DNA of 64,000 nt from Ottowia thiooxydans DSM 14619 (lineage in GTDB: Bacteria > Pseudomonadota > Gammaproteobacteria > Burkholderiales > Burkholderiaceae_C): NCBI RefSeq assembly GCF_000422885.1, contig NZ_AUGX01000001.1, positions 187,238 through 251,237 of the forward strand, read 5' to 3'. Numbering within the stretch: position 1 is the first letter of the stretch; every line of letters begins with the position of its first letter. A model generated the notes under the pieces. The model was not told the origin of the DNA. It saw nothing but the letters and a program-made list of their open reading frames with translations, and made no database searches. The position numbers and the translations under genes are program-made. Below, piece by piece: positions 1,662 through 39,381 of the stretch.

Positions 1662-1985
1662 ATGACGAGCAAGAAAAGCCATCTACAGACACCGGAACAG
1701 CTTCGCGAGCATGCGGGTAAGGCCTGCGCGTTGTTGAAGACGCTCGCCAATGAGGATCGGTTGTTGCTGCTATGCCAGATCGCGTCCGAGCGCCTCAACG
1801 TGGGCGAACTTGAAGCGATCACCGGCATTCGCCAGCCCACCTTGTCGCAGCAACTGGCCGTGCTGCGGCAGGAAAACTTGGTCGATACCGAGAAGGAGGG
1901 GAAGTTCGTTTATTACCGGCTGGCCAATGACAACGTCATGCGTGTCATGCGCACGCTCTGGGACATTTACTGCGCTCCGAAGTGA
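1662..1985 (+). CDS. ArsR-family regulator, BigR/SqrR-like (second copy)
   Basis: The 107-residue protein starts at ATG 1662 (MTSKKSHLQTPEQLREHAGK). It carries the winged helix with RQPTLSQQLAVLRQENLVDTE as recognition region, then KFVYYRL as wing. Cysteines occur in LLLLCQIAS and in the terminal DIYCAPK, again the BigR/SqrR pair. An in-frame extension upstream to 1581 is AT-rich low-complexity sequence and unlikely to be translated. The gene ends 13 bp before the flavoprotein gene, so both probably form one operon with the small genes after it. It is clearly different in sequence from the regulators at 168 and 23961. Confidence 0.85.
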   Translation: MTSKKSHLQTPEQLREHAGKACALLKTLANEDRLLLLCQIASERLNVGELEAITGIRQPTLSQQLAVLRQENLVDTEKEGKFVYYRLANDNVMRVMRTLWDIYCAPK

Positions 1986-1998
1986 AAGGGCTGAAACC

Positions 1999-3357
1999 AT
2001 GAAACACGACAAATACAAAGACATCTCCGAAAGCATCGATTTACCAAATGCCTTGAACCGTCGACGCGCCTTGCTGATGCTGGGCGCCGTGGGGACTGCG
2101 GGCACCTTGCTCCAGCCAGTCTCAGCCCGCGCAGCGGACAAAACAAAGACCAAGGCCCGCATCGTCATTGCGGGTGCTGGTGCGGCGGGCTTGACCACAG
2201 CGTCTCGTCTGGCCGCTTCGCTGGACGGCGCGAAGATCACCTTGATCGACGCGCGCAAGGAGCACCTCTACCAACCCGGCTTCACACTGGTGGGGGCGGG
2301 CATCAAGCCCGTGGGCTACGTGACCTCCACCACTGCGGAATATTTACCTGAGGGCGTGGAGCTGGTACAGGAGCGTGTGGCTGAGTTCGATCCGCAGGGC
2401 AATAGGGTCGTCACCGACAGCGGCGCGTCCTATCCCTACGACTTCCTCGTGGTCGCTACCGGCATGGTGCTGGAGTACAGCCTGATCGAAGGCATGGACG
2501 AGAAGCTGATTGGCCAAAACGGCATCGGCAGCATCTACCACAGCCCAGCGGGTGCCCAGGCCACCTGGCAGGCGATGTCAGCCTTTGCAGACAAGGGCGG
2601 CAGGGGTGTTTTTACACGCCCGTCCACCGAAATGAAATGCGCTGGAGCGCCACTCAAATACACATTCGTGACCGAAGATCACTTGACGCGGCGCGGCCAG
2701 CGCAGCAAGGCCGAGGTGGTCTACAACTCCAACAATAAGGTGTTGTTCAGCGTGCCCATCGTTTCAGAGAAGGTGCGCATGTTGTTCCAGGAACGTGGCA
2801 TCCAGGTCAACTATGAGCGCGTGCTCAAGGCCATCGACCCGGGCAAGCGCATCGCCACCTTCAGCACGCCTGGGGGCATGGAAGAACAAGGCTACGACTT
2901 CATCCACGTCATCCCGCCAATGCGCGCGCCCGAGGTCATCCGCAACAGTCCTTTGCCGTGGCAGACGGGTGCCTGGGCCGCCGAAGGCTGGATGGAAGTG
3001 GACAAGGGCACGCTGCGCCACGTGCGCTACCCCAACGTGTTCGGCGTGGGCGACATCGCGGGCGTCCCCAAGGGCAAGACCGCCGCCAGCGTGAAGTGGC
3101 AGGTGCCTGTGGCCGTGGACCACCTCCTGGCGGATATCGCGGGCAAGAACTCCGATGCGCTTTACACCGGCTACACCTCGTGCCCACTGATCACCCGGTT
3201 GGGCCAGGCGATGCTGGTGGAGTTCGATTACCAGAACAACCTGGTGCCGTCCTTCCCGGGCTTGATCGCGCCGCTCGAAGAGCTGTGGATCAGTTGGGTC
3301 ATGAAGACCATGGCCCTCAAGCCCACCTACATCAGCATGCTGCGCGGCAACGCATAA
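1999..3357 (+). CDS. Tat-exported FAD oxidoreductase, SQR/FccB-like
   Basis: This 452-residue flavoprotein probably oxidises sulfide or a related sulfane compound outside the cytoplasm. Residues 21-46 look like a twin-arginine signal (NRRRALLMLGAVGTAG...ARA). The dinucleotide fold motif IVIAGAGAAG follows at about 55-64, and VFGVGDIAG near residue 350 is the second FAD contact. Exactly two cysteines, Cys214 in KCAGAPLK and Cys395 in TSCPLIT, sit where SQR and FccB carry their redox disulfide. Known SQRs are mostly not Tat exported, so the FccB comparison may be closer. A homologue with the same cysteine pair lies at 35407. Substrate is inferred. Confidence 0.8.
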   Translation: MKHDKYKDISESIDLPNALNRRRALLMLGAVGTAGTLLQPVSARAADKTKTKARIVIAGAGAAGLTTASRLAASLDGAKITLIDARKEHLYQPGFTLVGAGIKPVGYVTSTTAEYLPEGVELVQERVAEFDPQGNRVVTDSGASYPYDFLVVATGMVLEYSLIEGMDEKLIGQNGIGSIYHSPAGAQATWQAMSAFADKGGRGVFTRPSTEMKCAGAPLKYTFVTEDHLTRRGQRSKAEVVYNSNNKVLFSVPIVSEKVRMLFQERGIQVNYERVLKAIDPGKRIATFSTPGGMEEQGYDFIHVIPPMRAPEVIRNSPLPWQTGAWAAEGWMEVDKGTLRHVRYPNVFGVGDIAGVPKGKTAASVKWQVPVAVDHLLADIAGKNSDALYTGYTSCPLITRLGQAMLVEFDYQNNLVPSFPGLIAPLEELWISWVMKTMALKPTYISMLRGNA

Positions 3358-3369
3358 GGAGTCTTGACC

Positions 3370-3747
3370 ATGAAAGAACTTGATCCACTCATCCTGCTGT
3401 CGGTGTTCCAGGAAATGCTCGGGGCGCTGCTCTGGCCGTTGGTTGCCATCATGGTGCTGGGCACGCTGGCGTTCATGCTCTTGCTGGTCCGGGAGCGCAA
3501 GATCGTGTCCCGAAGGTTCGTGCGTTCGCAAGCTTTGGGACTGATCGGTGGCGTCTTTGCGCTCATGCTGATGGCGAACGTGTCCTCTTCCGGTTTCACG
3601 GATGCCGGCGGCCCCGCCGACTGGCTCTTGATCGCGCTGGTGTTTGGCCTGGGCTTGGTCGGTGCTGCCATCGTCTTCTACACCATCGCGGGGTGGTGGG
3701 CGATCTGCCGGCACCCTGAAGCCCGATCAGTTGTACTTTCCCATTAA
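3370..3747 (+). CDS. Small membrane protein, DUF5368-like
   Basis: The 125-residue product has an N-terminal helix, a long hydrophobic segment (LLWPLVAIMVLGTLAFMLLLV), a basic loop RERKIVSRRFVRSQ, and two more membrane segments. I read it as a DUF5368-type inner-membrane protein. ATG 3370 follows an AAGGAG ribosome site at 3357-3362; an upstream TTG at 3364 is less likely. It starts 12 bp after the flavoprotein, and a similar protein follows the second flavoprotein at 36778. That repeated pairing suggests a membrane anchor or quinone-side partner for the oxidoreductase. This role is a hypothesis. Confidence 0.6.
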   Translation: MKELDPLILLSVFQEMLGALLWPLVAIMVLGTLAFMLLLVRERKIVSRRFVRSQALGLIGGVFALMLMANVSSSGFTDAGGPADWLLIALVFGLGLVGAAIVFYTIAGWWAICRHPEARSVVLSH

Positions 3748-3762: not shown

Positions 3763-4125
3763 ATGACAAGCAACTATAGAGAACTTACGCACGAAATCAT
3801 GGGCAATCTGGCCCCACTTCACAAAGGGCTCCCCCAGGTGATGAAAGGCTTTGGCGACATGGGCAAAGCAGCCATGGCCGATGGTGCTTTGGACGCCAAG
3901 ACCAAGGAGTTGATCGCGCTGGCCGTGGGTGTGGCAGCACGCTGTGATGGCTGCATCGGGTTCCATACCAAGGCTTTGGTCAAGCTGGGTGCCTCCACCG
4001 CAGAGGTGAATGAAGCTCTCGGCGTGGCGATTTACATGGGGGGCGGGCCATCCGCGATGTACGCGGCCAATGCAGTGGCCGCCTTCAACGAGTTTTCTAC
4101 GGCAGCCGAGAAACCCGCACCGTAA
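3763..4125 (+). CDS. Carboxymuconolactone decarboxylase/AhpD-like protein
   Basis: The 120-residue protein contains the AhpD core: KTKELIALAVGVAARCDGCIGFHTKALVKLG. Cys61 and Cys64 form the CxxC pair, and His68 follows at the distance seen in AhpD-type thiol-disulfide peroxidase partners. The run AIYMGGGPSAMYAANAVAAFNEF near the C-terminus is typical of this small all-helical family. True carboxymuconolactone decarboxylases lack the CxxC, so a thiol redox role is more likely here. It lies 15 bp after the membrane protein gene in the same sulfur operon, where it may reduce disulfides or persulfides. The substrate is unknown. Confidence 0.8.
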   Translation: MTSNYRELTHEIMGNLAPLHKGLPQVMKGFGDMGKAAMADGALDAKTKELIALAVGVAARCDGCIGFHTKALVKLGASTAEVNEALGVAIYMGGGPSAMYAANAVAAFNEFSTAAEKPAP

Positions 4126-4184
4126 CTGCCGACGGCATGTTTTGGCATGCCCCGTTTATTACCAACCATCCACCGAGTACCAAC

Positions 4185-4556
4185 ATGCAACAGTCTGATT
4201 TCGTCACCACCCTCTTTGACGGCAAGGGCAATCCCAACAAGGTGACCGTAGCCTTCACGATGGCGCTCAATGCTCTGCTCAAGGGCCATACGGCCTGCAT
4301 CATCCTGATGGTCGAGGCGGTTGAGCTGGGAAGGCCAGATGCGGCAAACGGCATGGATATCGGTCCACCTTTCGAAGCCGTGGCCGATCTGCTGCAAAAG
4401 TACCTGGACAAAGGCGGGCGCATCGCCATTTGTAAGTCCTGCATGGTTCACAACGGCATGAGCGCCGAGCAGATGGATCCGCGCTTTGAGATCATTTCTG
4501 CGCCGGACGTTATCGACCTGCTGATGGGGGCCAATGGGTCGTTACAAATTGCTTGA
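4185..4556 (+). CDS. DsrE-like sulfur-relay protein
   Basis: The 123-residue cytoplasmic protein starts at ATG 4185 (MQQSDFVTTLFDGKGNPNKV). It shows a DsrE/DsrF-like alpha/beta layout, with VTVAFTMALNALLKGHTACIILMVEAVELG and later YLDKGGRIAICKSCMVHNGM. DsrE relatives carry sulfane sulfur on a conserved cysteine; the candidate here is the CKSC pair in this last segment. It is the last gene of the first sulfur operon, 59 bp after the AhpD-like gene. It differs from the exported DsrE-like protein at 38968, which has a signal peptide. Sulfur carrier function is inferred from family and context. Confidence 0.7.
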   Translation: MQQSDFVTTLFDGKGNPNKVTVAFTMALNALLKGHTACIILMVEAVELGRPDAANGMDIGPPFEAVADLLQKYLDKGGRIAICKSCMVHNGMSAEQMDPRFEIISAPDVIDLLMGANGSLQIA

Positions 4557-4646: not shown

Positions 4647-4679
4647 CCGGCGGGATTAGATGATCTAACCGACCGCCGG
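4647..4679. terminator. Hairpin between convergent cargo and ICE backbone genes
   Basis: The outer arms CCGGCGG (4647-4653) and CCGCCGG (4673-4679) enclose a perfect inner repeat TTAGAT-G-ATCTAA. The structure spans the relaxase stop codon and could end transcription from either side. There is no clear T-tract, so factor-independent termination is uncertain. Confidence 0.45.
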
Positions 4680-6629
4680 CCCACGTTGCCGTCCAACCTC
4701 CCACGACACCGCGGCTCCGCGCACCGTCGCCACCAGTGTCTGTCCCAGCCGGTGCTGAATCACTGGCTTCCACGGCACCAGTCGGAACCCCAACCCGTCA
4801 TCGAGCATGGCGAACCGCCCGCTGGCGAGCATCACACTGCGTCGGTAGACGCCTCTGACGCGCTCGCCATCGGCCGCCGGTCGATGCTGCAAGCCCGTCT
4901 CGGCCGCGATGGTCCGACCGGCAGTCGCAAGCTCCCGCCCGCGCAGCGTCGCCAGCAGTTTGCCAGCCAGGACCACGCGCTGCCCGTGTCGCTCGGCCAA
5001 GCCTTGCTGGATCAAGAAGTCCGAGCGCTGTTGCAACGCATCCTTGACTTCGCTGCCGAAGCCCAGATCGCCTACACCCTTGCCGTCGCAGATCAGTCGC
5101 TGGTCCAACCAAGTCGCGCCGATCACACGGGTTTGTTGCTCGATGGGTAGGTGCGAACGTAGTTCCACCGCCACATCACTCAGGCGCTGTGCGTCGTACT
5201 GACGGCCCTGCTCGGGCAGGTCATCCGGTACCCGCCAAACACCTTCCGCCATGCGCTCCACGATGCCGAGTCGGCGCAGTGCTTCTAGTCGCCGAACGTG
5301 GGTATCGACCACCTCGCGCGGCTCCGGTGTGGACTGTGATTGGGCAATCGTCAGATGATGATCAGTACGGTACAGACCATGGGCAGCCAGCGCGGTGATG
5401 GTCCTGTCCGTCTCACGCACGCTGGCCGAGCCTTTAACTTCGACCACTGCACCGATCGGGAACTGCTCCACTTCGGTCTTGGCTGGTAATGCCACGTAGT
5501 GCGCCTTACCGTCAATGCCATCGACCACCAGATAGCCCTTGTCGTGCAGCTCGTCGGCCAGGCCTTTGGCGGCCACACGGCCGATGATGGAGCGGCTGTC
5601 CTCGCCCGGCTGGAACACGGCCAGGTCGCGTTGCTGGTTGCCCATCGCCCGCTGCATCGTGCGGATGATGTCGCCACGCTCGCCCAGTGCCCGCAGAGTC
5701 TGTTCGGCGTCAACGTGGACCGCCCAGACGCCGGGACGTTCTTCAGTCGCCAGTCCCATGCGTTGAAGCCGCTGCAAACGGCCCACCAGCAACACACGCT
5801 GCTGTCGCAGCTTCGGATCGCCGGCTGGTTGATCGACATGGTTCAGCCCGTCCCGTGCCTCACGTTGTAGGGTGCGATCCAAGCTGGTCCAGCGTTCCTG
5901 ATCAACTTCGCGCACCAGCGTGCGCTGGATCTCCAGCTCCGTACGCGGCCCCAGCCATTCGGTGGATAGCTCGGCAGCGCGCTCGCGCATGCCGCGGGTG
6001 ATGTAGGCCTGCGAGATGATGAGGTCTTTGCCGGTGTCATCCTTGCCGCGTAGCACGATATGGGTATGCGGGTTGTCGGTGTTCCAGTGGTTCACCGCTA
6101 CCCAATCCAGGCGGCTGCCAAGGTCGGCCTCCATGCGGCCCATCAGGTGGCGGGTATAGGTGCGCAGGTCGTCGAGCTGTTCGGCATCCTCGGGCGAGAC
6201 AATAAGGCGAAACTGATGCCGATCTTCCCGGCCGCGCTCCTCGAAAGCAGGCAAGTCGGCGCGGTCGGTCATCGGTCCGTAGGCCTCGCTGGTGTCCTGC
6301 TCGCGGCCCACGCCTTCGCGCTCGATGTAGCGCAGGTGCGTGATGGTCGATCGCACACCTGCCTGCTTCAGGTAGACCAGCCGCACCTTGACCGTGACGC
6401 GCCTGGAACGTGCGGACAGCACCTGCCCGGTGAAGCGCGCTGCCACATGGCCGCGCCCCAGCCGCGAACCCGGCGTCTTGCCGCCCTTGCCACGCTGCCC
6501 GCCGGTGGCGTTGGAGGCCTTGGTGGTCTGGCGCAATACCTGCGAGACAAAGGCCTGGCCGCGCTGCTTTGGGGTGCCCGGTCGGATGCGGAAATGATCG
6601 TCACCGTCCGAGTTGCCACGCTTGCTCAT
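4665..6629 (-). CDS. rlxS: Relaxase with DUF3363 domain (Tn4371-type)
   Basis: The 654-residue protein starts MSKRGNSDGDDHFRIRPG at 6629. The N-terminal part is the relaxase: NHWNTDNPHTHIVLRGKDDTGKD carries the clustered histidines that hold the metal ion, with YIEREGVGREQ before it. The C-terminal half is DUF3363, ending WEVGRQRGPAVG as in Tn4371-family relaxases. It would nick the transfer origin and pilot the strand to the recipient through a type IV channel. In this ICE family accessory genes are typically placed after the relaxase gene, before traG/trb. The sulfur cluster at 1-4556 occupies exactly that slot, so traG/trb may lie to the left of the window. Confidence 0.85.
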   Translation of the reverse strand: MSKRGNSDGDDHFRIRPGTPKQRGQAFVSQVLRQTTKASNATGGQRGKGGKTPGSRLGRGHVAARFTGQVLSARSRRVTVKVRLVYLKQAGVRSTITHLRYIEREGVGREQDTSEAYGPMTDRADLPAFEERGREDRHQFRLIVSPEDAEQLDDLRTYTRHLMGRMEADLGSRLDWVAVNHWNTDNPHTHIVLRGKDDTGKDLIISQAYITRGMRERAAELSTEWLGPRTELEIQRTLVREVDQERWTSLDRTLQREARDGLNHVDQPAGDPKLRQQRVLLVGRLQRLQRMGLATEERPGVWAVHVDAEQTLRALGERGDIIRTMQRAMGNQQRDLAVFQPGEDSRSIIGRVAAKGLADELHDKGYLVVDGIDGKAHYVALPAKTEVEQFPIGAVVEVKGSASVRETDRTITALAAHGLYRTDHHLTIAQSQSTPEPREVVDTHVRRLEALRRLGIVERMAEGVWRVPDDLPEQGRQYDAQRLSDVAVELRSHLPIEQQTRVIGATWLDQRLICDGKGVGDLGFGSEVKDALQQRSDFLIQQGLAERHGQRVVLAGKLLATLRGRELATAGRTIAAETGLQHRPAADGERVRGVYRRSVMLASGRFAMLDDGLGFRLVPWKPVIQHRLGQTLVATVRGAAVSWEVGRQRGPAVG

Positions 6630-7134
6630 GGCGTTGCTCCAGCGAAAGCCATCGAATCACGGCGTGCCATGCACGCAGATTCTCCAATGCCCACAAGGCT
6701 TTGCCGACCCTCGCGGCACAGTGCCGCCCAAAGGCGCGTGCCGCGCCAACCCCACGTGCAGACTCGCTCATGGGCCGGCAGCGTGCCGGACCCTTCAATC
6801 TTGCCCTGCATCTTTTCCCGGCCTGACGACACGGGAATGCGATGCCCCGGCGGCGCTGCGCAGGGCCCAGCCTGCCGCGCGGCGAACGCCCGCCATGCCG
6901 CAGGCATGGAGCGTTCGGGGCAAGCGATCTGCACGGGGGAACGCACGACGCAGTACAACAGAGGGTGAGGTGCGAAGCGCGACGCGGGTGCGCTCGCGCT
7001 GCCCGCACTGCGACGCGGCGAGCGCATGCGCAGTGGCACGCCTGATAGCACGTCAATGACAAGCGACAGCGCGCCGGACGTGAGGTAGGCGAAGCGACGG
7101 TCAATGCGCCAGCGAGGCCGGCAGTCGGGCAAGG
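6630..7134. other. 505-bp gap, candidate oriT region
   Basis: No reading frame here resembles a protein I know, and several long overlapping frames on both strands look like GC-rich artefacts. The segment lies just upstream of the relaxase gene, a common place for oriT. It contains the strong hairpin at 6883-6917 and, at 7041-7052, a copy of the core CCTGATAGCACG found in the three iterons near repA. Confidence 0.4.
6883..6917. repeat. Strong two-part hairpin upstream of the relaxase gene
   Basis: Arms CGAACGC (6883-6889) and GCGTTCG (6911-6917) surround a second stem, CCATGCC (6893-6899) with GGCATGG (6903-6909), and a GCA loop. All 14 pairs are perfect, with a CCG/A bulge between stems. 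It may be part of oriT or a transcript end. Confidence 0.7.
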
Positions 7135-7698
7135 TCATGGTCGCTTCTCCAGGTGAATCGGCTGCGCCATGCCGATCACGGCGGATGCAGAAATCGGCCC
7201 GAAATAGCGGCTGTCGAACGACGCCGGATGGGTCGCGCTTAAAAGGAACAGCTCACCTTCGGCAAGCGGTCGGCACTGCGGCCACGACGGCAGCAGCCGT
7301 CCCATGCGGTCGGCAGGCAGCACGGCGGCCGCAGGCACGCCGTCTATCTGCACGACGCCGCCAACGATGCAGACGTGTTGTGGCGCGAGCGCGCTCACAC
7401 GTTTGAGCAGCGGGATGTGCGCCGGTAGGTAGCCGCGCTGCGCAGCGAGCGCGGCCACGTCTGTCGGAAGCCGGACCAGCACGATGCTGCCCACGGACAA
7501 AGGACGCGGCGGCGATTCGGCTGGCGCTATGCGATACCAGCCGACCGGCACACTGTCGGACGGGTTGTAGACGAAACGCGCCGCAGGCTGCACGGAGGAT
7601 GCCCAGGCCAGCGCAGCGAGGCTGCAGACAGACAGGGCCGCCAGCACGATGCGAGCACGCAGGCGTGAACGAGGCATGGTCGTCGTAGTGGCCGTCAT
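7135..7698 (-). CDS. traF: TraF-like S26 signal peptidase
   Basis: The 187-residue protein begins at ATG 7698 (MTATTTTMPRSRLRARIVLA), overlapping the upstream stop by ATGA. One N-terminal membrane anchor (IVLAALSVCSLAALAWA) is followed by the S26 motifs. The serine lies in NPSDSVPVGWYRI and the lysine in LLKRVSALAPQHVCI. In conjugative elements TraF trims or cyclises the pilin and matures it in the periplasmic side of the inner membrane. It is the last gene of an overlapping string DUF2840-RHH-ParA, typical of Tn4371-family ICEs. Confidence 0.85.
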   Translation of the reverse strand: MTATTTTMPRSRLRARIVLAALSVCSLAALAWASSVQPAARFVYNPSDSVPVGWYRIAPAESPPRPLSVGSIVLVRLPTDVAALAAQRGYLPAHIPLLKRVSALAPQHVCIVGGVVQIDGVPAAAVLPADRMGRLLPSWPQCRPLAEGELFLLSATHPASFDSRYFGPISASAVIGMAQPIHLEKRP

Positions 7699-8246
7699 TG
7701 CAGTGCCCTCCCGGCCAACCATGCGGTGTGCCGCTCGGTGGTGTAGTCGGGCAGCGGCAGGCCAGCCGCCAGACGGTTGCCCAGCGTACGCCAGTACGCG
7801 GGTGACACGTCGATGGTGGCGACGCCCAGAGCCTCGATGGCGTCGATCCTCGCCAGCGTGTCGTGCACCTTTTGCTCGCCCTCTGCGTGCAAAAGGATGC
7901 GTGCGCCGGGTTGCACACCAGGAATGCGCTGCACGGTATCCAATGGCGTGCAGGCCTGCATCACCATGAGCTGCCAGCGCGTAGTGCCGTAGTCGTTGGA
8001 CTCCCAGCGGATACGGCAGAGGATGGACGCCGGCAGGAACACCGCGCTGCGTCGCCAGCGGTCGAGCTGGAGGGTGTGCGCCGGGTTGCCAAAGCGCAGA
8101 TAGAGATTAATGCGCTGGCTCACGAAAGCGAGCGCCACGCGGGTCAGCGGCGTGTTGCTGGACTGCCTTGCGAGTGCGGAAAACGATGGCGAGGGCGATG
8201 GCGCAGCCGTGTCAGCGGCTGCTTGCACCTGGTTGTTTGCAGTCAT
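7695..8246 (-). CDS. DUF2840 family ICE protein
   Basis: The 183-residue protein matches the DUF2840 family by its core: LTRVALAFVSQRINLYLRFGNP, FLPASILCRIRWESNDYGTTRWQLMVMQA and HDTLARIDAIEALGVATIDVSPAYWRTLGNRLA. Its biochemical role is unknown. It is found in conjugative islands between the partition genes and traF. Here it overlaps both neighbours by four bases, which means tight translational coupling. No membrane segment or signal peptide is visible. A role linked to conjugation or element maintenance is inferred only from the fixed gene order. Confidence 0.8.
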   Translation of the reverse strand: MTANNQVQAAADTAAPSPSPSFSALARQSSNTPLTRVALAFVSQRINLYLRFGNPAHTLQLDRWRRSAVFLPASILCRIRWESNDYGTTRWQLMVMQACTPLDTVQRIPGVQPGARILLHAEGEQKVHDTLARIDAIEALGVATIDVSPAYWRTLGNRLAAGLPLPDYTTERHTAWLAGRALQ

Positions 8247-31053: not shown

Positions 31054-32463
31054 TCAAGCCGCGTCAGGGGCGTCACCGATCTCGCGAAGCTTGCGGTAGA
31101 GAGACCGCTCGCTAATTCCGAGTTTTTCCGCCAGTTCGGCGCGGCTGCCGCGGTGGGCCTTGAGTTGGGCCTGCAGGGCGGCACGCTCGACGCTTCGCAA
31201 TGAAGACTCCGCGCCGGATGCTGTGGCCTCCGGCGCTTCTGCGTGTTGCAATGCCACCGGCGAAGGCCTCGCGTCGGTACCCAGTGCGCGCTCCACATGC
31301 ACTGGCTCGATACTGTGGCCGTCGGCCAGCAAGGCGGCGCGCTCCAGAACATTGCGCAGCTCACGCACATTGCCCGGGAACGGATAGCGCTGGAGCAAGG
31401 CCAGCGTATCTGCAGACAGGCTCAGACGCCGTTGCGGCGCCACCCGCTCCAGCAGCGCTGCCGCCAGCAGCGCAATGTCGTCTCCCCGTTCCCGCAGCGC
31501 CGGCAGGGCAATGGGGAATGTGCTGAGCCGGTAATACAGGTCTTCGCGGAAGCGCCCGTCGGTCACCATGGCCTTGAGGTCGCGGTGTGTGGCCGAGACC
31601 ACGCGCACATCGGTGCGCCTCAGCTCGTTGCTGCCAACGCGGCGGTAGGTGCCGCTCTCCAGCAGGCGTAACAGCTTAACTTGCATGGCCAGCGGAATGT
31701 CGCCTACTTCATCCAGAAACAAAGTACCGCCACTGGCGGCTTCCACCAACCCGGGCTTGCTGGTATTGGCACCAGTGAAGGCGCCTCGTTCGTGGCCGAA
31801 CAGTTCACTCTCGAACAGGGTCTCGGGCAGGCTCGCGCAGTCCACCACCACCAGCGGGTGGGTTGCGCGCGGGCTGGCATCGTGCACAGCCTGGGCTACC
31901 AACTCCTTGCCGGTGCCCGACTCTCCGAGCAGCAGCACGCTGGCCTGCGACGGCCCAACCCGAGCCACCAGCTCCAGCATGCGCTGGAAGGCCGGCGAAC
32001 GGCCCACCAGTCCCTGCCGCACGGGCTGACCCTGGGCCACGCGCAAGGGCTCCATCTTCTCCACGAAATATGCCTGTTCACCCGTGGCATCCAGCAGTGG
32101 CACCAGCTCGATGTTCACGTACGACTCGCCCTGGGGCGTGTGGTGCAGGTGCAGCACGCGTTCGCGCTGGCCCGACTCGCGCGCACGCGCCAGAGGGCAG
32201 CTTTCACCCGCCTGGTCACACGGCACGCTGAAGTGGTGGGATACCTCGTAGCAAGTGCGCCCGACCACCGAGGCGCGCGGGCTGAACTGGCTACGGTAGG
32301 CCGCATTGGCGGCCAGGATACGGTACTGGCGGTCCAGCAGGATGTGTGGCTCGGCCAGGCTTTCCAGGTACGAGAGCAGTTCGGGCAACACGTGGGCCAT
32401 CGGGTGGGTCTTTCGGAACATTGCACTGGATTCCAGCGGGAACCTGCGGTCAATCGCTGCCAA
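31054..32463 (-). CDS. PAS-AAA+-Fis sigma-54-dependent activator
   Basis: The 469-residue protein has a PAS domain first (EPHILLDRQYRILAANAAYRSQFS...CYEVSHHFSVPCDQAGESCPLARA). The AAA+ domain follows with LLLGESGTGKELVAQAVH (Walker A), FGHERGAFTGANTSKPG (the GAFTGA loop that contacts sigma-54) and GGTLFLDEVGDIPL (Walker B). A Fis-type HTH ends it (AELAEKLGISERSLYRKLREIG). It is divergent from cydAB, which has a sigma-54 promoter, so it very probably activates that operon. The PAS cysteines may sense redox, NO or sulfide. The start could also be MFRKTHPMAH, 14 residues in. Confidence 0.9.
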   Translation of the reverse strand: MAAIDRRFPLESSAMFRKTHPMAHVLPELLSYLESLAEPHILLDRQYRILAANAAYRSQFSPRASVVGRTCYEVSHHFSVPCDQAGESCPLARARESGQRERVLHLHHTPQGESYVNIELVPLLDATGEQAYFVEKMEPLRVAQGQPVRQGLVGRSPAFQRMLELVARVGPSQASVLLLGESGTGKELVAQAVHDASPRATHPLVVVDCASLPETLFESELFGHERGAFTGANTSKPGLVEAASGGTLFLDEVGDIPLAMQVKLLRLLESGTYRRVGSNELRRTDVRVVSATHRDLKAMVTDGRFREDLYYRLSTFPIALPALRERGDDIALLAAALLERVAPQRRLSLSADTLALLQRYPFPGNVRELRNVLERAALLADGHSIEPVHVERALGTDARPSPVALQHAEAPEATASGAESSLRSVERAALQAQLKAHRGSRAELAEKLGISERSLYRKLREIGDAPDAA

Positions 32464-32605: not shown

Positions 32606-32649
32606 AAGTGAAAGGCGTCTGCCACTTCACCGATTCAAGGAAACACCCG

Positions 32650-34062
32650 ATGTCTGACCTGCCCGACGCACTCCTGTTGGCGCGCATCCAGTTTGCGTTC
32701 ACGGTGAGTTTCCACTTCCTGTTTCCCGCTATCACCATCGGCCTAGCGAGTTACCTCGCGGTGCTCGAAGGCCTGTGGCTTAAGACCGGTCGCGAAGACT
32801 ACATGAACCTGTTCCGCTACTGGATCAAGATCTTCGCGCTGGTGTTTGCAATGGGCGTGGTCTCGGGCATCGTCATGTCCTACCAGTTCGGCACCAACTG
32901 GGCGGTGTTCTCCGACAAGGCCGGACCGATCATCGGCCCGCTGATGGCCTACGAGGTGCTGACCGCCTTCTTCCTCGAAGCCGGTTTCCTGGGTGTGATG
33001 TTGTTCGGCATGAACCGCGTGGGCAAGAAGCTGCACTTCACCGCCACGCTGATGGTCGCCCTGGGCACTTTCGTATCGGCGTTCTGGATCCTCTCGGTCA
33101 ACAGCTGGATGCAGACCCCGGCGGGCTACGCGATCAACGCCAACGGGCAGTTCATCTCCGCTGGCAGCTGGCTGGCCATCATCTTCAACCCCAGCTTTCC
33201 CTACCGACTGGTCCACACCCTATCCGCCGCCTACCTGACCACCGCATTCCTCGTGGGCGCGGTCGGCGCCTGGCACCTGCTGAAAGACCGCGGCAATCCG
33301 CGCGCCCGCCTCATGTTCTCCATGGCTATGTGGATGGCAGCCATCGTGGCACCACTGCAGATCTTTCTGGGTGACTTGCACGGGCTCAATACGCTCGAGC
33401 ACCAGCCGGTCAAGGTGATGGCCATGGAAGGCCACTACCAGAGCCACCCGGAAGGCGCACCCCTGATCCTGTTCGGCATTCCCAACAGCGCCGAAGGCCG
33501 GGTCGACTACGCGGTGCAGATTCCAAAGCTGTCCTCGCTAATCCTCAAGCACGACCTCAACGCGCCCATGCAGGGTCTGGACACCGTGCCGGTGGCCGAC
33601 CATCCGCCGGTGGGCATGGTGTTTTGGGCGTTTCGCATCATGGTCGGCCTGGGCTTCCTGATGGCCGGGCTCGGTATGCTCAGTCTGTGGGCCCGTGCCC
33701 GCGGCCGCCTGTACGAATGGAAGTGGCTGCACCGTTTTGCGCTGGCCATGGGCCCCTCGGGGTTGGTGGCGGTGCTCGCGGGCTGGATCACTACTGAGGT
33801 GGGCCGCCAGCCCTGGACCATACAGGGTCTGATGCGCACGGCCGAGTCGGCTTCACCTCTGGCAGCACCGGCCGTGGCAGCTTCGCTGGTGGCCTTTGTG
33901 GTCGTGTACTTCGCGGTCTTCGGCGCCGGCGTCCTCTACATCCTGAAGCTGATGGCCAAGCCGCCGGTGGTACACGAGTCGGCACCGCCCAATATCCCCG
34001 CGCGCGCCGCTGGCACCACGCCCGCCGTAGCGCTGCACCCCGATGCCCTGGCCAACGAATAA
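32650..34062 (+). CDS. cydA: Cytochrome bd-type quinol oxidase subunit I (CIO type)
   Basis: The 470-residue subunit has about nine membrane helices. ARIQFAFTVSFHFLFPAITIGLA carries the haem histidine near the N-terminus, SYQFGTNWAVFSDKAGPIIGPLMAYEVLTAFFLEAGFLGVMLFG the conserved glutamates, and DLHGLNTLEHQPVKVMAMEGHY the quinol-site region. The Q-loop is short, as in the cyanide-insensitive oxidases. It forms, with CydB, an oxygen reductase that takes electrons from quinol. This class is generally resistant to cyanide and sulfide. ATG 32650 follows CAAGGAAA. Regulation by sigma-54 is unusual for this operon. Confidence 0.92.
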   Translation: MSDLPDALLLARIQFAFTVSFHFLFPAITIGLASYLAVLEGLWLKTGREDYMNLFRYWIKIFALVFAMGVVSGIVMSYQFGTNWAVFSDKAGPIIGPLMAYEVLTAFFLEAGFLGVMLFGMNRVGKKLHFTATLMVALGTFVSAFWILSVNSWMQTPAGYAINANGQFISAGSWLAIIFNPSFPYRLVHTLSAAYLTTAFLVGAVGAWHLLKDRGNPRARLMFSMAMWMAAIVAPLQIFLGDLHGLNTLEHQPVKVMAMEGHYQSHPEGAPLILFGIPNSAEGRVDYAVQIPKLSSLILKHDLNAPMQGLDTVPVADHPPVGMVFWAFRIMVGLGFLMAGLGMLSLWARARGRLYEWKWLHRFALAMGPSGLVAVLAGWITTEVGRQPWTIQGLMRTAESASPLAAPAVAASLVAFVVVYFAVFGAGVLYILKLMAKPPVVHESAPPNIPARAAGTTPAVALHPDALANE

Positions 34063-34072
34063 GGGGAACCGT

Positions 34073-35077
34073 ATGAACATCGACCTGACCATCATCTGGG
34101 CCCTCATCATTGTGGTGGCCGTCTTCATCTACGTGGTACTCGACGGTTTCGACCTCGGCATCGGCATCCTGTTCAACACCTTCAAGGTAGGCCATGACCG
34201 CGATACCGCTATGAACAGCATCGCACCGGTCTGGGACGGCAACGAGACCTGGCTGGTGATGGGCGGCGGCGGGTTGCTGGCTGCCTTTCCGCTGGCCTAC
34301 GGCCTGATCTTTTCCGCCCTGTACGCGCCCATCATCGCCATGCTGTTGGCCCTGGTGTTCCGCGGTGTAGCCTTCGAGTTCCGGTGGCGAGATCCGGGTC
34401 ATCAAAAATTCTGGGATTTAGCCTTCACCGGTGGATCGTTTTTGGCCGCGTTCTCGCAGGGAGTCATCCTCGGCGCGCTGCTGCAAGGTGTGTCCATCAG
34501 CGGACGATCCTATGCGGGTGGCTGGTGGGACTGGCTCACGCCCTTCACACTGCTCACCGGCTTGAGTCTTGTGGTGGCATACGCGCTGTTGGGTTCGACG
34601 TGGCTGGTGATGAAGGCGGAGGGTTCACTGCAACGCCAGGCCAGATCCATGGCTTGGTGGCTGGGCGGCGCTACGCTGGCAGCTATCGTGGCGGTCAGCA
34701 TAGCAACCTTGTTCCTGAGCGCCGACTATTTCAGTAAATGGCTCAACTTGCCCAACTTGTTTTGGGTGGCGCCCGTGCCGTTGATGGTTGCACTGGCCAG
34801 CGTGGCCTTTGTCCGCAGCCTCAAGGCCGGCCATGAGACCGCGCCCTTCCTACTCACGTTGGGAGTTTTCCTGCTGAGCTTCGTGGGCCTGTGCATTAGT
34901 GTGTTCCCGTATGTCATTCCCGGAGCCGTCACCATCTGGGAAGCCGCCACCGACCGCAGCAGCCAGGTCTTCATGCTTTGGGGCACGGCCTTCGTGCTGC
35001 CCATGATCCTGGGCTATACCGCCTGGTCCTACTGGGTGTTCCGCGGCAAGGTCAACTCAGACGGGTACCACGCATGA
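34073..35077 (+). CDS. cydB: Cytochrome bd-type quinol oxidase subunit II
   Basis: The 334-residue membrane protein starts at ATG 34073 after AAGGGGAAC and reads MNIDLTIIWALIIVVAVFIY. CydB signatures are VLDGFDLGIGILF, WDGNETWLVMGGGGLLAAFPLAYG and FRGVAFEFRWRD. Eight or so helices follow, ending in AWSYWVFRGKV. It pairs with CydA to form the oxidase core. The gene begins ten bases after cydA and overlaps the next small gene by ATGA. This implies tightly coupled translation of the three subunits. Confidence 0.92.
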   Translation: MNIDLTIIWALIIVVAVFIYVVLDGFDLGIGILFNTFKVGHDRDTAMNSIAPVWDGNETWLVMGGGGLLAAFPLAYGLIFSALYAPIIAMLLALVFRGVAFEFRWRDPGHQKFWDLAFTGGSFLAAFSQGVILGALLQGVSISGRSYAGGWWDWLTPFTLLTGLSLVVAYALLGSTWLVMKAEGSLQRQARSMAWWLGGATLAAIVAVSIATLFLSADYFSKWLNLPNLFWVAPVPLMVALASVAFVRSLKAGHETAPFLLTLGVFLLSFVGLCISVFPYVIPGAVTIWEAATDRSSQVFMLWGTAFVLPMILGYTAWSYWVFRGKVNSDGYHA

Positions 35078-35238
35078 AGATTCCTCTTCTGCGCTGGCCC
35101 AACATCCCTTCGGCAAGCTCCGATGAGCCTTTGCCACCTCTTTGGCGCCGCCTGCTCTGGATGGCGGGCATCTGGCTCGCGAGCATTTCAGTACTGACCG
35201 CAGTAGCCATGGTGCTGCGGTGGGTGCTGAAAACCTAA
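35074..35238 (+). CDS. DUF2474 family small subunit of bd oxidase
   Basis: The 54-residue protein reads MKIPLLRWPNIPSASSDEPL then PPLWRRLLWMAGIWLASISVLTAVAMVLRWVLKT. It has one membrane helix after a basic turn, the pattern of the DUF2474/CydX-like accessory subunit of CIO-type oxidases. It overlaps cydB by four bases. Small subunits of this kind stabilise the haems in the enzyme. The size falls below that of many automatic gene calls, but the position and pattern are convincing. Confidence 0.75.
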   Translation: MKIPLLRWPNIPSASSDEPLPPLWRRLLWMAGIWLASISVLTAVAMVLRWVLKT

Positions 35239-35406: not shown

Positions 35407-36738
35407 ATGATGAACACTCAGTATGCTGCGTACACGAATTCGACACGTAGGCGCTGGCTGCAGGCTCTGGCTTCTACGCCACTCGTTCCGACATTGACTG
35501 CCCCGGCTTTGGCTGATGTGGCCACAAAAACAAAAGCCCATATCGTGATAGCTGGCAGCGGTCTGGGCGGCATCGCAGTCGCCAACAGGCTGTCTAAGCT
35601 GCTTGACGGTGCAAAGATCACCATCATCGACCGCAAAGAAGAACACAACTACCAGCCTGGATACACCCTGGTTGCGTCGGGTGTTTGGCCTGTGTCTAAG
35701 GTGCGCGACAGAAATGCAGACTTCCTGCCCGCTGGCATCGAATGGGTGAAAGACATGGTTGCCAGTTTTGATCCTGCGGCAAACACCGTTAGTACCGTGA
35801 GCGGGCAACGCATTCGCTACGATTTCCTGGTGGTTGGCATCGGCGTTTATTTGGACTACGCCCAGATAACCGGGATGGATATATCAGCCATCGGACGCGA
35901 AGGTCTGACCAGCGTCTACCCGAGCCCAGAGGCTGCACAGGCCACATGGGCGACCATGCAAGCGTTCGCCGCCAAAGGGGGCAACGCGGTAATGACGCTG
36001 CCTTCTACGCCACTCAAATGTGCAGGTGCGCCCCTGAAAATGACTTTCATGCTGCGGGATCGACTGTTCAAGGCGGGCACCTTGGGGACATCCAAGATCC
36101 GTTTTGAGTCAGCGCTGGGCAACGTGTTTGGGGTTAAGGCGGTCAACGACAACGTCCTCGGACGCTGGCGTGACCTGGGAATCGACGTGGATTTCTCTCG
36201 CAAGCTCACCGCTATCGACATCGGTGCACGTCGCGCCACCTTTGCTTTCCCCGATGGGCAGACGCAGGAGATGCCTTATGACTTTATCCATGTGGTGCCC
36301 CCTACACGCGCTCCAGATGCCGTAAAGAACAGCGAGCTGGCATGGAAGGATGGCCCGTTTGCCACAGGTGGCTGGTTGGAAGTGGACAAACGCACCCTCC
36401 AGCACCGCCGGTTTCCTAACGTGTTCGGCATCGGCGATATCAATGGCACGCCACGCGGTAAGACCGCCGCCACGGTAAAGAAGAGTGCCCCACTGGTGGC
36501 GCACAACTTGGTGGAAGTGATTGCTGGGCGCGTAGCCAACGAGAACTTTGACGGCTACACCTCTTGCCCGCTAATCACGCGCGAGGGCTCTGCCATGCTG
36601 ATCGAGTTCGACTACGAGGGCAACCTCACCCCTACGCTACCAATGATCGAACCGCTACAGGACAGTTTTTTCGCATGGCTGATGAAGGTTCGCATGCTCA
36701 AACCAGCATACATATCCGTACTAAAGGGCCGGGTCTGA
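35407..36738 (+). CDS. Tat-exported FAD oxidoreductase, SQR/FccB-like (second copy)
   Basis: This 443-residue flavoprotein is a homologue of the one at 1999. It has a twin-arginine-type signal (STRRRWLQALASTPLVPTLTAPALA), the FAD motif HIVIAGSGLGGIAVANRL, VVGIGVYLDYAQI, and VFGIGDINGTPRGKTAATVKK near the end. Cys205 in KCAGAPLK and Cys387 in TSCPLIT again form the only conserved cysteine pair, placed as in SQR. It likely oxidises sulfide or a polysulfide in the periplasm. The start (ATG 35407 or 35410) uses AGGAGA, which is the border of the 97-bp element. Confidence 0.8.
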   Translation: MMNTQYAAYTNSTRRRWLQALASTPLVPTLTAPALADVATKTKAHIVIAGSGLGGIAVANRLSKLLDGAKITIIDRKEEHNYQPGYTLVASGVWPVSKVRDRNADFLPAGIEWVKDMVASFDPAANTVSTVSGQRIRYDFLVVGIGVYLDYAQITGMDISAIGREGLTSVYPSPEAAQATWATMQAFAAKGGNAVMTLPSTPLKCAGAPLKMTFMLRDRLFKAGTLGTSKIRFESALGNVFGVKAVNDNVLGRWRDLGIDVDFSRKLTAIDIGARRATFAFPDGQTQEMPYDFIHVVPPTRAPDAVKNSELAWKDGPFATGGWLEVDKRTLQHRRFPNVFGIGDINGTPRGKTAATVKKSAPLVAHNLVEVIAGRVANENFDGYTSCPLITREGSAMLIEFDYEGNLTPTLPMIEPLQDSFFAWLMKVRMLKPAYISVLKGRV

Positions 36739-36777: not shown

Positions 36778-37122
36778 ATGTATGAACTCTGGCTGATGCT
36801 GAATATTCTCTGGGAAGTTGCCTTAAGCGTCTGGCCCATGTTGCTAGCAGCATCATTGTTGTGGCTGGTGTTAATGGGCATCACGTTGCGATCCGCTGGT
36901 GCCCGATGGAGCGCTAGCTTGCCGTCAGCATTCCTGATTGGGTGCATTGCCGCCTTCGCAGCGTTTCTTTTGCTTCCACAAGCACTGAGCTCTACGCTGT
37001 CCGACCTAGGCTATTGGGTGGACTGGGTCACGTTGATTGGGTTGGCTATGGCCGTAGGCGGCGCTGTCGCCGCATATGCCTTGCCATTACTAACCATACG
37101 CCGCGAGCTCGGCCATAGATGA
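36778..37122 (+). CDS. Small membrane protein, DUF5368-like (second copy)
   Basis: The 114-residue product has three to four membrane segments: NILWEVALSVWPMLLAASLLWLVLMG, SAFLIGCIAAFAAFLLLPQAL and DWVTLIGLAMAVGGAVAAYALPLL. It is similar in size, helix layout and basic loop to the protein at 3370. Both directly follow an SQR-like flavoprotein. The repeated pair supports a common complex, maybe a membrane anchor that passes electrons to quinone. No haem- or metal-binding histidines are visible, so a direct electron carrier role is not supported. GGATAC lies upstream as a weak ribosome site. Confidence 0.55.
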   Translation: MYELWLMLNILWEVALSVWPMLLAASLLWLVLMGITLRSAGARWSASLPSAFLIGCIAAFAAFLLLPQALSSTLSDLGYWVDWVTLIGLAMAVGGAVAAYALPLLTIRRELGHR

Positions 37123-37174: not shown

Positions 37175-37846
37175 ATGTACTTTCGAATACTCCCTGACGA
37201 GACCGATGGTGCAATGAGCTATCTGCTTGCCGATCTTGACACTCGCGAGTGCGTTCTGCTGGATCCACGCGGCACAGATGTACCCCTGCTCAGAGCCATG
37301 CTGCAAGAACACCAGTTGCATTTGTGCTGGTTGCTGCGTACTCACGAGCATGACGCACTCCTTCCAGGTGAGTCCGCTGCATTAGACGCGCTTGGCGCGA
37401 AACGCATGCAAAAGGTGCTATCGGTCGAGGCAAGCGACAAGATAGCTTGTGAAACGAGTGCGCTGATGTTTGGCAACGAACTGCTGAGAGTCATGTCCAC
37501 TCCGGGTCACACTGAGGGCTGCGTGAGCTACTTGTGGCGCGATCGGCTGTTCTGCGGCGATCTGCTGACGGTGGATGCTTGCCCACACCAACCGAGACCA
37601 GCTCTGCCCGAAGCCTTATGGGACAGCGCGACCCGCCATGTATTCACCCTGCCTGGTGAGACCTTGCTTTTCTACGGCCACGCCAAGCAGGGCCGCGTCG
37701 TGTCGAACGTGCTGGAGCAGCGACGCTGGCACCCCTGGCTTGGCAATACCACGCGCGATGAGTTTCTTGCGCGCGTGCGCACCCCCAAAAATGAAGCCAA
37801 TGCATCGTCAATGCGCGACGCTACGCTGTCCACTTACACCCTATGA
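37175..37846 (+). CDS. Metallo-beta-lactamase-fold protein with altered metal motif
   Basis: The 223-residue protein resembles small persulfide dioxygenase-like hydrolases: MSYLLADLDTRECVLLDPRG, then the metal-site strand and STPGHTEGCVSYLWRDRLFCGDLLTVDACPHQ, and LLFYGHAKQG. The usual HxHxDH motif, however, reads HEHDAL at residues 57-62. The first two histidines are kept; the Asp and last His are lost. His112 and Asp129 remain. Iron in ETHE1-like enzymes is held by the first His, the middle His and the Asp, so iron binding is still possible, while a two-metal site is not. It overlaps the haemoglobin gene by ATGA. Confidence 0.7.
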   Translation: MYFRILPDETDGAMSYLLADLDTRECVLLDPRGTDVPLLRAMLQEHQLHLCWLLRTHEHDALLPGESAALDALGAKRMQKVLSVEASDKIACETSALMFGNELLRVMSTPGHTEGCVSYLWRDRLFCGDLLTVDACPHQPRPALPEALWDSATRHVFTLPGETLLFYGHAKQGRVVSNVLEQRRWHPWLGNTTRDEFLARVRTPKNEANASSMRDATLSTYTL

Positions 37847-38292
37847 CAACCTTTTGCGGCTCTGCCGACACCATTACAGCCAACATCGTTCCCGACAGCG
37901 TTTATACGCGCCTTGGTGGTGCGCCGGCGATCCGAAGATTGGTAGACCGTTTCTACGAATTGATGGACGAGTTGCCCGAAGCGTATGCCGTGCGCCAGCT
38001 TCATCCGAGCAGCCTGTCAGGCAGCGTCGACAGGCTGTTCAAGTACCTCAGCGGATGGTTCGGCGGTCCACCCTTGTACGAGCGGGAGCGCGGTCATCTC
38101 CGGCTGCGCAAGCGCCATTCGCCCTATGCCATCAACGCGGCAGTGCGTGACGAATGGCTGTTGTGCATGCAACTGGCGCTGGCCGAACAGGTGGATGACC
38201 TAGCCTTGCGAACATCCATCGAGCGAGTGTTTTCCAGTATGGCCGATCACCTGATCGACACGGACTACTTCATCAAAGGATGCCCGCGATGA
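37843..38292 (+). CDS. Group II truncated haemoglobin
   Basis: The 149-residue protein is a trHbII-type globin: SVYTRLGGAPAIRRLVDRFYELMDELPEAY, LFKYLSGWFGGPPLYERERGHLRLRKRHSPYAINAAVRDEWLLCM. His92 in KRHSPYAI is the proximal haem ligand, and the tryptophan in RDEWL corresponds to the G8 tryptophan of group II/III globins. These bind oxygen, NO or sulfide. Translation is coupled to the altered hydrolase gene before it. In a sulfur cluster it may bind sulfide or deliver oxygen to an oxygenase; neither is shown. The gene has normal length for the family. Confidence 0.85.
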   Translation: MTTFCGSADTITANIVPDSVYTRLGGAPAIRRLVDRFYELMDELPEAYAVRQLHPSSLSGSVDRLFKYLSGWFGGPPLYERERGHLRLRKRHSPYAINAAVRDEWLLCMQLALAEQVDDLALRTSIERVFSSMADHLIDTDYFIKGCPR

Positions 38293-38875: not shown

Positions 38876-38967
38876 AATCAGCTTCACGAGCCCGCACCAC
38901 GCCGTTGAATTCGCACTTCGTCTCTTTTTTCCCGCGATTTTTTTCCAACCCACTGGAGTTACACACC

Positions 38968-39381
38968 ATGAAGAAGTCTTTCCTGATCACCACCATCCTT
39001 ATGTCAACAGCTCTCGTGGCGCAGGCCGACGAGTTGTTTGTGTCCATACATTCGGGCGCAGCCATGGCACAGGGCGCAGGTCTCGTCCTTGCCGGACAAG
39101 CGCTAGAACAGAAGGTCGACGTGCGCGTGCTGCTGTGTGACGCAGCCGGTGACATCGCTGTCAATGGCCAGACCATGCCCAGCCTCAAACCGCGCAACGT
39201 CACACCGCAACAAATGCTTCAAGGCTTAATCAAAGCCGGAGCTAAGGTAGAGGTGTGTGCGCTTTACTTGCCAAACACGGGTCGTCAGCCCGCCGACTTG
39301 CTCACAGGTGTGACCCCAGCAAAACCCGCCGAAGTCGCTGCCCATCTCCTCAAACCCGGCGTGCGAACCCTTGCTTTCTGA
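38968..39381 (+). CDS. Exported DsrE-like protein
   Basis: The 137-residue product has a signal peptide (MKKSFLITTILMSTALVAQA). The mature part is DsrE-like: DELFVSIHSGAAMAQGAGLVLAGQALEQKVDVRVLLCDAAGD, then PQQMLQGLIKAGAKVEVCALYLPNTG and ADLLTGVTPAKPAEVAAHLL. Cysteines in VLLCDAA and KVEVCALYL are candidates for holding sulfur. A periplasmic sulfur carrier beside a periplasmic flavoprotein would form a sensible sulfide-to-carrier route. ATG 38968 has TGGAG upstream; the in-frame region before it is untranslated by appearance. Confidence 0.75.
   Translation: MKKSFLITTILMSTALVAQADELFVSIHSGAAMAQGAGLVLAGQALEQKVDVRVLLCDAAGDIAVNGQTMPSLKPRNVTPQQMLQGLIKAGAKVEVCALYLPNTGRQPADLLTGVTPAKPAEVAAHLLKPGVRTLAF

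Follow-up and report, generated by a model that had tools for sequence, protein, structure and literature searches.

A twin-arginine-signal flavoprotein of the type II sulfide:quinone oxidoreductase class and its three-helix DUF5368-type companion: a putative two-subunit periplasmic enzyme

Introduction

Why would an exported flavoprotein of the sulfide:quinone oxidoreductase (SQR) class be encoded directly ahead of a small membrane protein, not once but twice in the same stretch of DNA? The question is raised by 64,000 nucleotides of Ottowia thiooxydans DSM 14619 (contig NZ_AUGX01000001.1, positions 187,238 to 251,237 of the forward strand; genome of 7.05 Mb in 78 contigs), hereafter the window. 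In both copies, a gene for a flavoprotein with a twin-arginine translocation (Tat) signal is followed by a gene for a membrane protein of approximately 115–125 amino acids (aa). Copy A occupies 1999–3357 and 3370–3747, and copy B occupies 35407–36738 and 36778–37122, all on the forward strand. SQRs are described as monotopic single proteins in the excerpts of PMC9666304 consulted here. We argue that the pair is, on balance, probably a periplasmic two-subunit SQR, in which the three-helix protein would provide membrane docking and access to quinone; the complex, the role toward quinone, and the substrate are predictions from genes and structural models.

Two diverged copies of one gene pair

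Copy A encodes SQR A (452 aa) and companion A (125 aa), with 12 bases between the SQR stop and the companion start, and copy B encodes SQR B (443 aa) and companion B (114 aa), separated by 39 bases. All four reading frames are open, and the original prediction that the pair recurs in the same order with diverged sequences holds. SQR A and SQR B are 51% identical over 431 columns, and companions A and B give a weak BLASTP match (E 0.002). Companion A is a DUF5368 protein proper, scoring 137.7 bits against the PF17336 cut-off of 25, whereas companion B, at 22.9 bits, falls under that cut-off; because it shares the position, length, helix pattern, and loop motif of companion A, it is regarded as a diverged relative. 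The label "DUF5368-like" originally given to both thus denotes membership for copy A but only kinship for copy B. No RNA family at gathering score and no tRNA was found in the window.

The pairing across genomes

A contig scan with DUF5368 proteins detected 406 relatives, of which the best 80 were taken as genome loci, a choice that favors close relatives. These loci lie nearly all in Alphaproteobacteria, with a few in Gammaproteobacteria (one of the 80 is from Granulosicoccaceae). In 80 of 80, a Tat-SQR homolog lies directly upstream of the companion on the same strand, with a gap of 10–15 bases in 71 and a maximum of 146.

A second sample comprised 198 genomes spread evenly over one Rhodobacterales family, with the first eight candidates per genome scored. 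Here, DUF5368 exceeded its cut-off in 38 genomes, the identical 38 genomes held an SQR of 644–746 bits, and the two genes were adjacent in all 38 (13–25 bases between matches in 36; 112 and 425 in the remaining two). No orphan DUF5368 over the cut-off was present in the 198 genomes; in one of them, the only match was below the cut-off and contained an internal stop. The same genomes yielded 49 further SQR matches of 292–345 bits, 46 of which were retrieved and labeled cytosolic on the basis of the absence of a visible export signal, without a predictor. Among three of these that were scanned against Pfam, two carry an N-terminal BLH_phosphatase (DUF442) domain and the third lacks it. None of the 38 over-cut-off DUF5368 genes adjoins a cytosolic SQR. 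As a companion control, 43 regions of cytosolic type II SQRs, all extending 455 bases or more downstream, gave no match to the DUF5368 profile even at one per 1,000 frames, while the same profile recovered 80 of 80 true pairs; the other three of the 46 regions also contain an exported pair, and they returned only the companion of that pair and a single 6-bit match.

In a broader sample of the phylum (398 genomes, the first four SQR candidates of each being scored), 10 genomes contained an SQR above 600 bits, and nine of these had DUF5368 over the cut-off. The tenth (G629) encodes a diverged relative of the three-helix type directly downstream of its SQR. This relative and that of another genome (G313) scored 28.0 bits each in a three-sequence set, where the bits are safer than the E-values, and 25.0 and 24.2 bits, respectively, in a later profile run. 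Among 60 relatives, 10 genomes contain an SQR of this class (one partial), and all 10 also contain a companion: B-type or related in nine, including the window's own genome, which also has copy A, and A-type in one (G305). B-type companions stand directly behind the same SQR class in seven congeners and one order-level genome. Within the genus, 28 other genomes were scanned; seven have an SQR of this class, all with a B-type companion.

Plasmids show the same pattern. Each of the 20 plasmid records matching DUF5368 carries the SQR next to it, and the 22 records with an SQR at 55% identity or more are those 20 plus Pseudorhodobacter turbinis and Paracoccus versutus pBEN. The P. turbinis record does have a companion by a later profile check, though it lies outside the 20. 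For the Tat-signal SQR paralog of pBEN, profile search detected no companion; in this paralog, the second catalytic Cys and the customary C-terminus are missing as well, and it appears to be a natural example of altered or abolished function. The concurrence of a missing companion with a missing catalytic Cys was counted in favor of the two-subunit reading. Three further records show 46% SQR identity (Salinivibrio twice and Acinetobacter haemolyticus once). In the two sampled, one from each genus, a Tat-SQR is followed by a hydrophobic protein of 110–113 aa annotated as "hypothetical", with profile scores of 12.0 bits (Salinivibrio) and 14.7–16.3 bits (Acinetobacter). Their membership rests on position, length, and helix pattern as much as on score, and such low-scoring companions indicate that the companion family is probably wider than the Pfam family DUF5368.

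The survey of adjacency in other genomes, suggested as a check with the original prediction, thus leaves the pairing unrefuted: it recurs, and in the family sample it does so in both directions. As far as gene content can tell, the pairing of the exported SQR with its companion is nearly obligate.

An exported flavoprotein of the type II class

In phmmer searches, the top match of the flavoprotein is human SQOR at 259 bits, ahead of the flavin subunit of flavocytochrome c (77 bits) and Aquifex SQR (75 bits). A fold search with a read-through fusion model of pair A likewise placed human SQOR first (Z 52.4, rmsd 1.8 Å, 396 residues aligned), with lower scores for Acidithiobacillus SQR (Z 41.0) and the flavocytochrome c flavin subunit (Z 40.6). 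In these sequence and fold comparisons, SQOR comes out nearer to the flavoprotein than do type I SQR, type V SQR, and flavocytochrome c. Among NCBIfam models, the best match is to a type III SQR selenoprotein family, at 208.9 bits and far below its cut-off of 525. Membership in the flavin subunit family of flavocytochrome c (FccB type) was considered and rejected: FCSD_central reaches 17.7 bits in copy B (cut-off 27) and is unlisted in copy A, and the partner is a DUF5368 protein without conserved Cys or His rather than a cytochrome c.

Each window flavoprotein has exactly two Cys residues, Cys214/Cys395 in SQR A and Cys205/Cys387 in SQR B, at the catalytic positions of SQOR, where they align with the KCAGAP and YTSCPL motifs of the human enzyme. 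The alignment confirms the Cys pair of the original prediction. Both residues are kept in 79 of 79 A-type rows (the sole omissions being L024 and L026, truncated at a contig end), 8 of 8 B-type rows, and 46 of 46 cytosolic type II SQRs; L019, whose SQR is broken at the N-terminus, was kept out of the B-type rows, and L022 was judged a spurious P0004 match. By sequence and modeled fold, the window flavoproteins plainly fall within the type II SQR class of human SQOR, and the exported enzyme probably oxidizes hydrogen sulfide.

Both flavoproteins begin with a twin-arginine signal, a hydrophobic stretch, and an AxA-like site (read by eye), the signal of SQR A lying within residues 1–46 (1999–2136); the "SQR-like Tat flavoprotein" of the original prediction is borne out in both respects. 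A script recovered the twin-arginine pattern in 76 of 80 loci, and two of the four misses are the loci cut by a contig end. The genome of the window has one match to TatC. The flavoprotein would thus fold with flavin adenine dinucleotide (FAD) in the cytoplasm and leave via the Tat system.

The exported proteins are also distinguished by their ends. In 80 of 80, the chain stops 2 residues past an MLRG-type motif, whereas in all 46 of the cytosolic type II SQRs used for this count (of 49) it continues for 10–19 residues past the same motif. The exported class has a fixed residue at 30 positions where the cytosolic class does not, and 16 of these lie in 346–445 (hypergeometric P 4e-4, with columns treated as independent). 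Most SQRs have a C-terminal domain with two amphipathic helices, which forms the quinone site and is presumed to bind the membrane, and a truncated type III SQR was soluble and inactive, according to the portions of PMC9666304 consulted. The exported enzymes depart from this picture of a monotopic protein that anchors itself through two amphipathic helices at its C-terminus: the terminal stretch is missing in 80 of 80, and the fusion model shows one C-terminal helix (residues 385–403 of the model). The lost stretch probably helps cytosolic type II SQRs to sit on the membrane.

The companion protein

An AlphaFold2 model of companion A (mean pLDDT 86.0, pTM 0.68) contains long helices at residues 6–42, 47–71, and 82–114. 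In an 82-row alignment, the conserved residues S74, D78, G80, G81, P82, and D84 lie in or beside the loop between helices 2 and 3. The loop between helices 1 and 2, taken with its flanks, is basic, averaging 4.1 Lys/Arg against 1.3 Asp/Glu per row. Basic loops of membrane proteins face the cytoplasm (the positive-inside rule); the conserved 2–3 loop is therefore predicted to be periplasmic, on the side of the flavoprotein.

No alignment column holds Cys or His in more than 30% of the 82 rows; any Cys occurs in 6 rows and any His in 32. The companion is thus unlikely to carry electrons by heme or sulfur by thiol, and a cytochrome or a thiol relay was rejected on these grounds, in keeping with the original statement that the companion is not a c-type cytochrome.

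Gene neighborhoods

Copy B sits in a longer row of genes. Upstream of it, on the forward strand, are genes for cytochrome bd-type oxidase subunits I (32608–34062; PF01654, 552 bits) and II (34043–35077; PF02322, 329 bits), followed by a small DUF2474 protein overlapping the end of cydB (35074–35238; PF10617, 32.9 bits, cut-off 26.6). Divergent from this row, on the reverse strand, lies a sigma-54 activator with a PAS domain, FisR-like by architecture (31054–32463). Cytochrome bd is sulfide-insensitive, and in Acinetobacter FisR controls sulfide genes, according to the sections of PMC7315123 consulted. Downstream, again on the forward strand, follow genes for a metallo-beta-lactamase-fold protein possibly, though weakly, related to persulfide dioxygenase (37175–37846; PF00753, 23.8 bits, cut-off 22.7); a DsrE-like protein whose N-terminus, read by eye, resembles a signal (38962–39381; PF02635, 17.1 bits, below the cut-off of 22.7), which is a candidate acceptor of sulfane sulfur and has a similar gene near 8 of 80 pairs; and a rhodanese domain protein (39487–39867; PF00581). 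A bacterial-type globin gene (37843–38292; PF01152) also lies behind pair B, overlapping the end of the metallo-beta-lactamase-fold gene.

The cydAB linkage recurs elsewhere. The two genes stand upstream of the pair on the same strand in 23 of 80 loci, in addition to copy B and an Acinetobacter plasmid. On the SQR tree, the state of this linkage changes at least 17 times, with short upstream flanks scored as lacking cydAB, indicating that gain or loss of the link has occurred repeatedly. Compared with the cyd genes of the window, those close to the pairs are only approximately 29–38% identical. At 32 of 80 loci, the pair is followed by genes for SLAC1-type anion channels, which may move sulfur anions; Pfam matches bear out three of these genes. 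A carboxymuconolactone decarboxylase-like gene is found upstream of the B-type pair in five of the six regions L218–L223.

Copy A is preceded, 13 bases upstream of SQR A, by a gene for an ArsR-family regulator of the BigR/SqrR type (1662–1985, forward strand). Its best match in the Protein Data Bank (PDB) is BigR (3pqj, 73.8 bits), followed by the ArsR-family entries 13ct and 6o8k–6o8o, which we take to be SqrR. Both sensor Cys positions align with those of BigR, a sensor of sulfide and polysulfide whose sensor residues are given as Cys42 and Cys108 in the parts of PMC5823870 consulted. Behind the pair, on the forward strand, are genes for a carboxymuconolactone decarboxylase-family protein (3763–4125; PF02627) and a DsrE-family protein (4137–4556; PF02635); a similar DsrE gene, identified by reading its translation, lies behind the A-type pair of G305.

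A relaxase gene with DUF3363 (within 4665–8246, reverse strand) and a TraF-type signal peptidase look-alike (7135–7722, read by eye) lie beside pair A, which may therefore ride on a mobilizable island. On its other side, at 558–1609, a metallo-beta-lactamase-fold gene (forward strand) and a SulP permease gene (reverse strand) have partial Pfam matches and overlap at 785–1124, as might be expected of two truncated genes brought together by a deletion. The SulP reading frame contains eight perfect copies of the 6-base repeat ATCAGC (1410–1457), which encode an alternating Leu-Met run.

On plasmid p4 of A. haemolyticus, cydAB, the SQR, and the companion lie together, with tatABC approximately 2.1 kb beyond the pair; the locus may be a mobile unit that brings its own export machine. 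An IS4-like element lies between tatABC and the cydAB–SQR–companion genes.

A proposed mechanism and its alternatives

In the two-subunit enzyme proposed here, the exported FAD protein would lie on the outer face of the inner membrane and use its Cys pair to oxidize H2S. The C-terminus of this protein, shortened relative to cytosolic type II SQRs, would have lost the protein's own membrane stretch, and the DUF5368-type three-helix protein would take over, docking the flavoprotein on the outer leaflet and forming or bordering the path of ubiquinone to FAD. Electrons would enter the quinone pool and, where cydAB is linked, pass to sulfide-insensitive cytochrome bd; the sulfane sulfur would stay in the periplasm as polysulfide or pass to a carrier such as the DsrE-like protein. 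A docking subunit is suggested by the cut tail, the concentration of class-specific positions in 346–445, and the predicted periplasmic location of the conserved companion loop, and quinone is suggested as the acceptor because cydAB precedes copy B and the pair at 23 of 80 loci. Much of the original idea of a two-component periplasmic sulfide dehydrogenase is thereby supported, namely the pairing, the export signal, the SQR class, the non-cytochrome companion, and the recurrent link to a quinol oxidase; the complex itself stays a prediction. The read-through fusion model of pair A (pLDDT 86.8, pTM 0.83) is compatible with a defined arrangement of the two proteins.

Several observations weigh against this proposal. 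The fusion model proves no complex, because the fusion itself forces nearness. Foldseek with the companion model gave 34 matches, none at E ≤ 0.001; the best VIA-align match (Z 6.2, to small respiratory-complex subunits) is within the range that the tool gives for common arrangements, and the best match of a companion sequence profile to the PDB had an E-value of 0.17, so that no clear fold match was found by these three routes. Other conserved companion residues (E15, W22, R41, G98, and Y104) lie away from the predicted periplasmic loop. The flavoprotein retains one C-terminal helix with which it could bind the membrane alone, and a type VI SQR deprived of its terminal helix stayed in the membrane fraction, according to the excerpts of PMC9666304 consulted, so that no simple rule equates the tail with membrane binding. 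Moreover, the search for cydAB was negative at 57 of 80 loci, some with short flanks, and near the B-type pair in L218–L223 (five congeners and one order-level genome), and most of seven annotated plasmid loci are flanked by few or no sulfur genes.

Among the alternatives, the most durable casts the companion as an assembly or export factor, acting in Tat quality control, FAD retention, or insertion of the flavoprotein into the membrane, rather than as a working subunit. A small protein without conserved Cys or His would suit such a role, as would its fast divergence (24% identity between A and B, against 50% for the flavoproteins), and dedicated partners encoded next door are common for Tat substrates. 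Known Tat redox chaperones, however, are mostly soluble and cytoplasmic, whereas the conserved loop of the companion is predicted to be periplasmic, and the loss of the flavoprotein tail is better suited to a docking subunit; we thus regard an assembly factor as unlikely.

The companion might instead move the product, serving polysulfide, sulfite, or HS- as a small channel or exporter. The SLAC1-type genes downstream of many pairs suggest that anion traffic matters, but where present such a gene could already perform this task; for a pore, three helices is a small number unless the protein is oligomeric, and a periplasmic enzyme needs no exporter for its product. This role seems quite improbable. 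Similarly low is the probability that the substrate of the flavoprotein is not sulfide but some other compound of sulfur or selenium, such as polysulfide, an organic persulfide, or selenide. The selenoprotein family of the best NCBIfam model, despite its sub-cut-off score, and the periplasmic site, which would take away cytosolic acceptors such as glutathione, lean that way, while the Cys pair and fold are those of human SQOR and the context includes a BigR-type regulator and cytochrome bd. That the pairing is a mere conserved operon of two proteins acting independently is very improbable: neighbors in operons need not touch, and contact between the two is a prediction, but they occur together in both directions in 38 of 38 genomes, and among the 198 genomes DUF5368 over the cut-off never stands alone, while other neighbors vary.

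A broader version of the two-subunit proposal is that DUF5368 and its diverged relatives represent the first quinone subunit of an SQR that is integral to the membrane, on which the exported flavoprotein has come to depend after losing its own tail; together with cytochrome bd, the pair would form a portable, periplasm-facing short circuit from sulfide to oxygen, carried on plasmids and mobile islands and in one case accompanied by tatABC. We offer this version tentatively and would lean slightly against it. A widespread exported SQR that is almost never encoded apart from a membrane partner would extend the range of known enzyme architectures. If the proposal is correct, DUF5368 gains a function, and periplasmic sulfide oxidation would be expected in many Alphaproteobacteria, among them Rhodovulum species and Paracoccus denitrificans PD1222, whose flavoprotein is PDEN_RS23370 and whose DUF5368 protein is PDEN_RS23375. 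Annotation would also be sharpened, as the SQRs in the plasmid records examined are now labeled "FAD/NAD(P)-binding oxidoreductase" or similar and the diverged companions "hypothetical protein".

Comparison with known systems

In the open-licence literature searched, which leaves subscription papers and preprints outside its scope, no paper names DUF5368, and none presents, in its title or abstract, an SQR that is exported by Tat and paired with a membrane protein. One parallel in organization is the flavocytochrome c sulfide dehydrogenase (FccAB/SoxEF), an exported two-subunit flavoenzyme with a c-type cytochrome partner and cytochrome c as acceptor. The present pair resembles it in its proposed make-up as an exported two-subunit sulfide flavoenzyme; it differs in the partner, a helical membrane protein in which neither Cys nor His is conserved, and in the flavoprotein, which is nearer to SQOR (Z 52.4 versus 40.6).

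For the SQR of Rhodobacter capsulatus, we know of no Tat signal or partner protein. Some of this SQR may be periplasmic, according to the portion of PMC9995734 consulted. Type I SQRs (Acidithiobacillus and Aquifex) likewise pass electrons from sulfide to quinone at the membrane, but each is a single monotopic protein with its own membrane helices, and the type VI SQR of Thiocapsa (SqrF) shares a shortened C-terminal domain with one helix, although the excerpts of PMC9666304 consulted for both types mention neither an exported form nor a partner for type VI.

The nearest relatives are the type II SQRs, human SQOR and the bacterial cytosolic forms, with which the enzyme shares its fold, FAD motifs, two catalytic Cys residues, and one C-terminal helix. 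Unlike the cytosolic forms, it has a Tat signal, a tail of 2 rather than 10–19 residues, and a three-helix companion, and it lacks the N-terminal BLH_phosphatase/DUF442 domain to which type II SQRs of Rhodobacterales are often fused. Its place in the type II class is plain from sequence, yet the self-anchored, single-protein feature of that class fails; because the self-sufficient monotopic end is missing, the exported enzyme is best set as a variant of a known enzyme rather than as a plain type II member.

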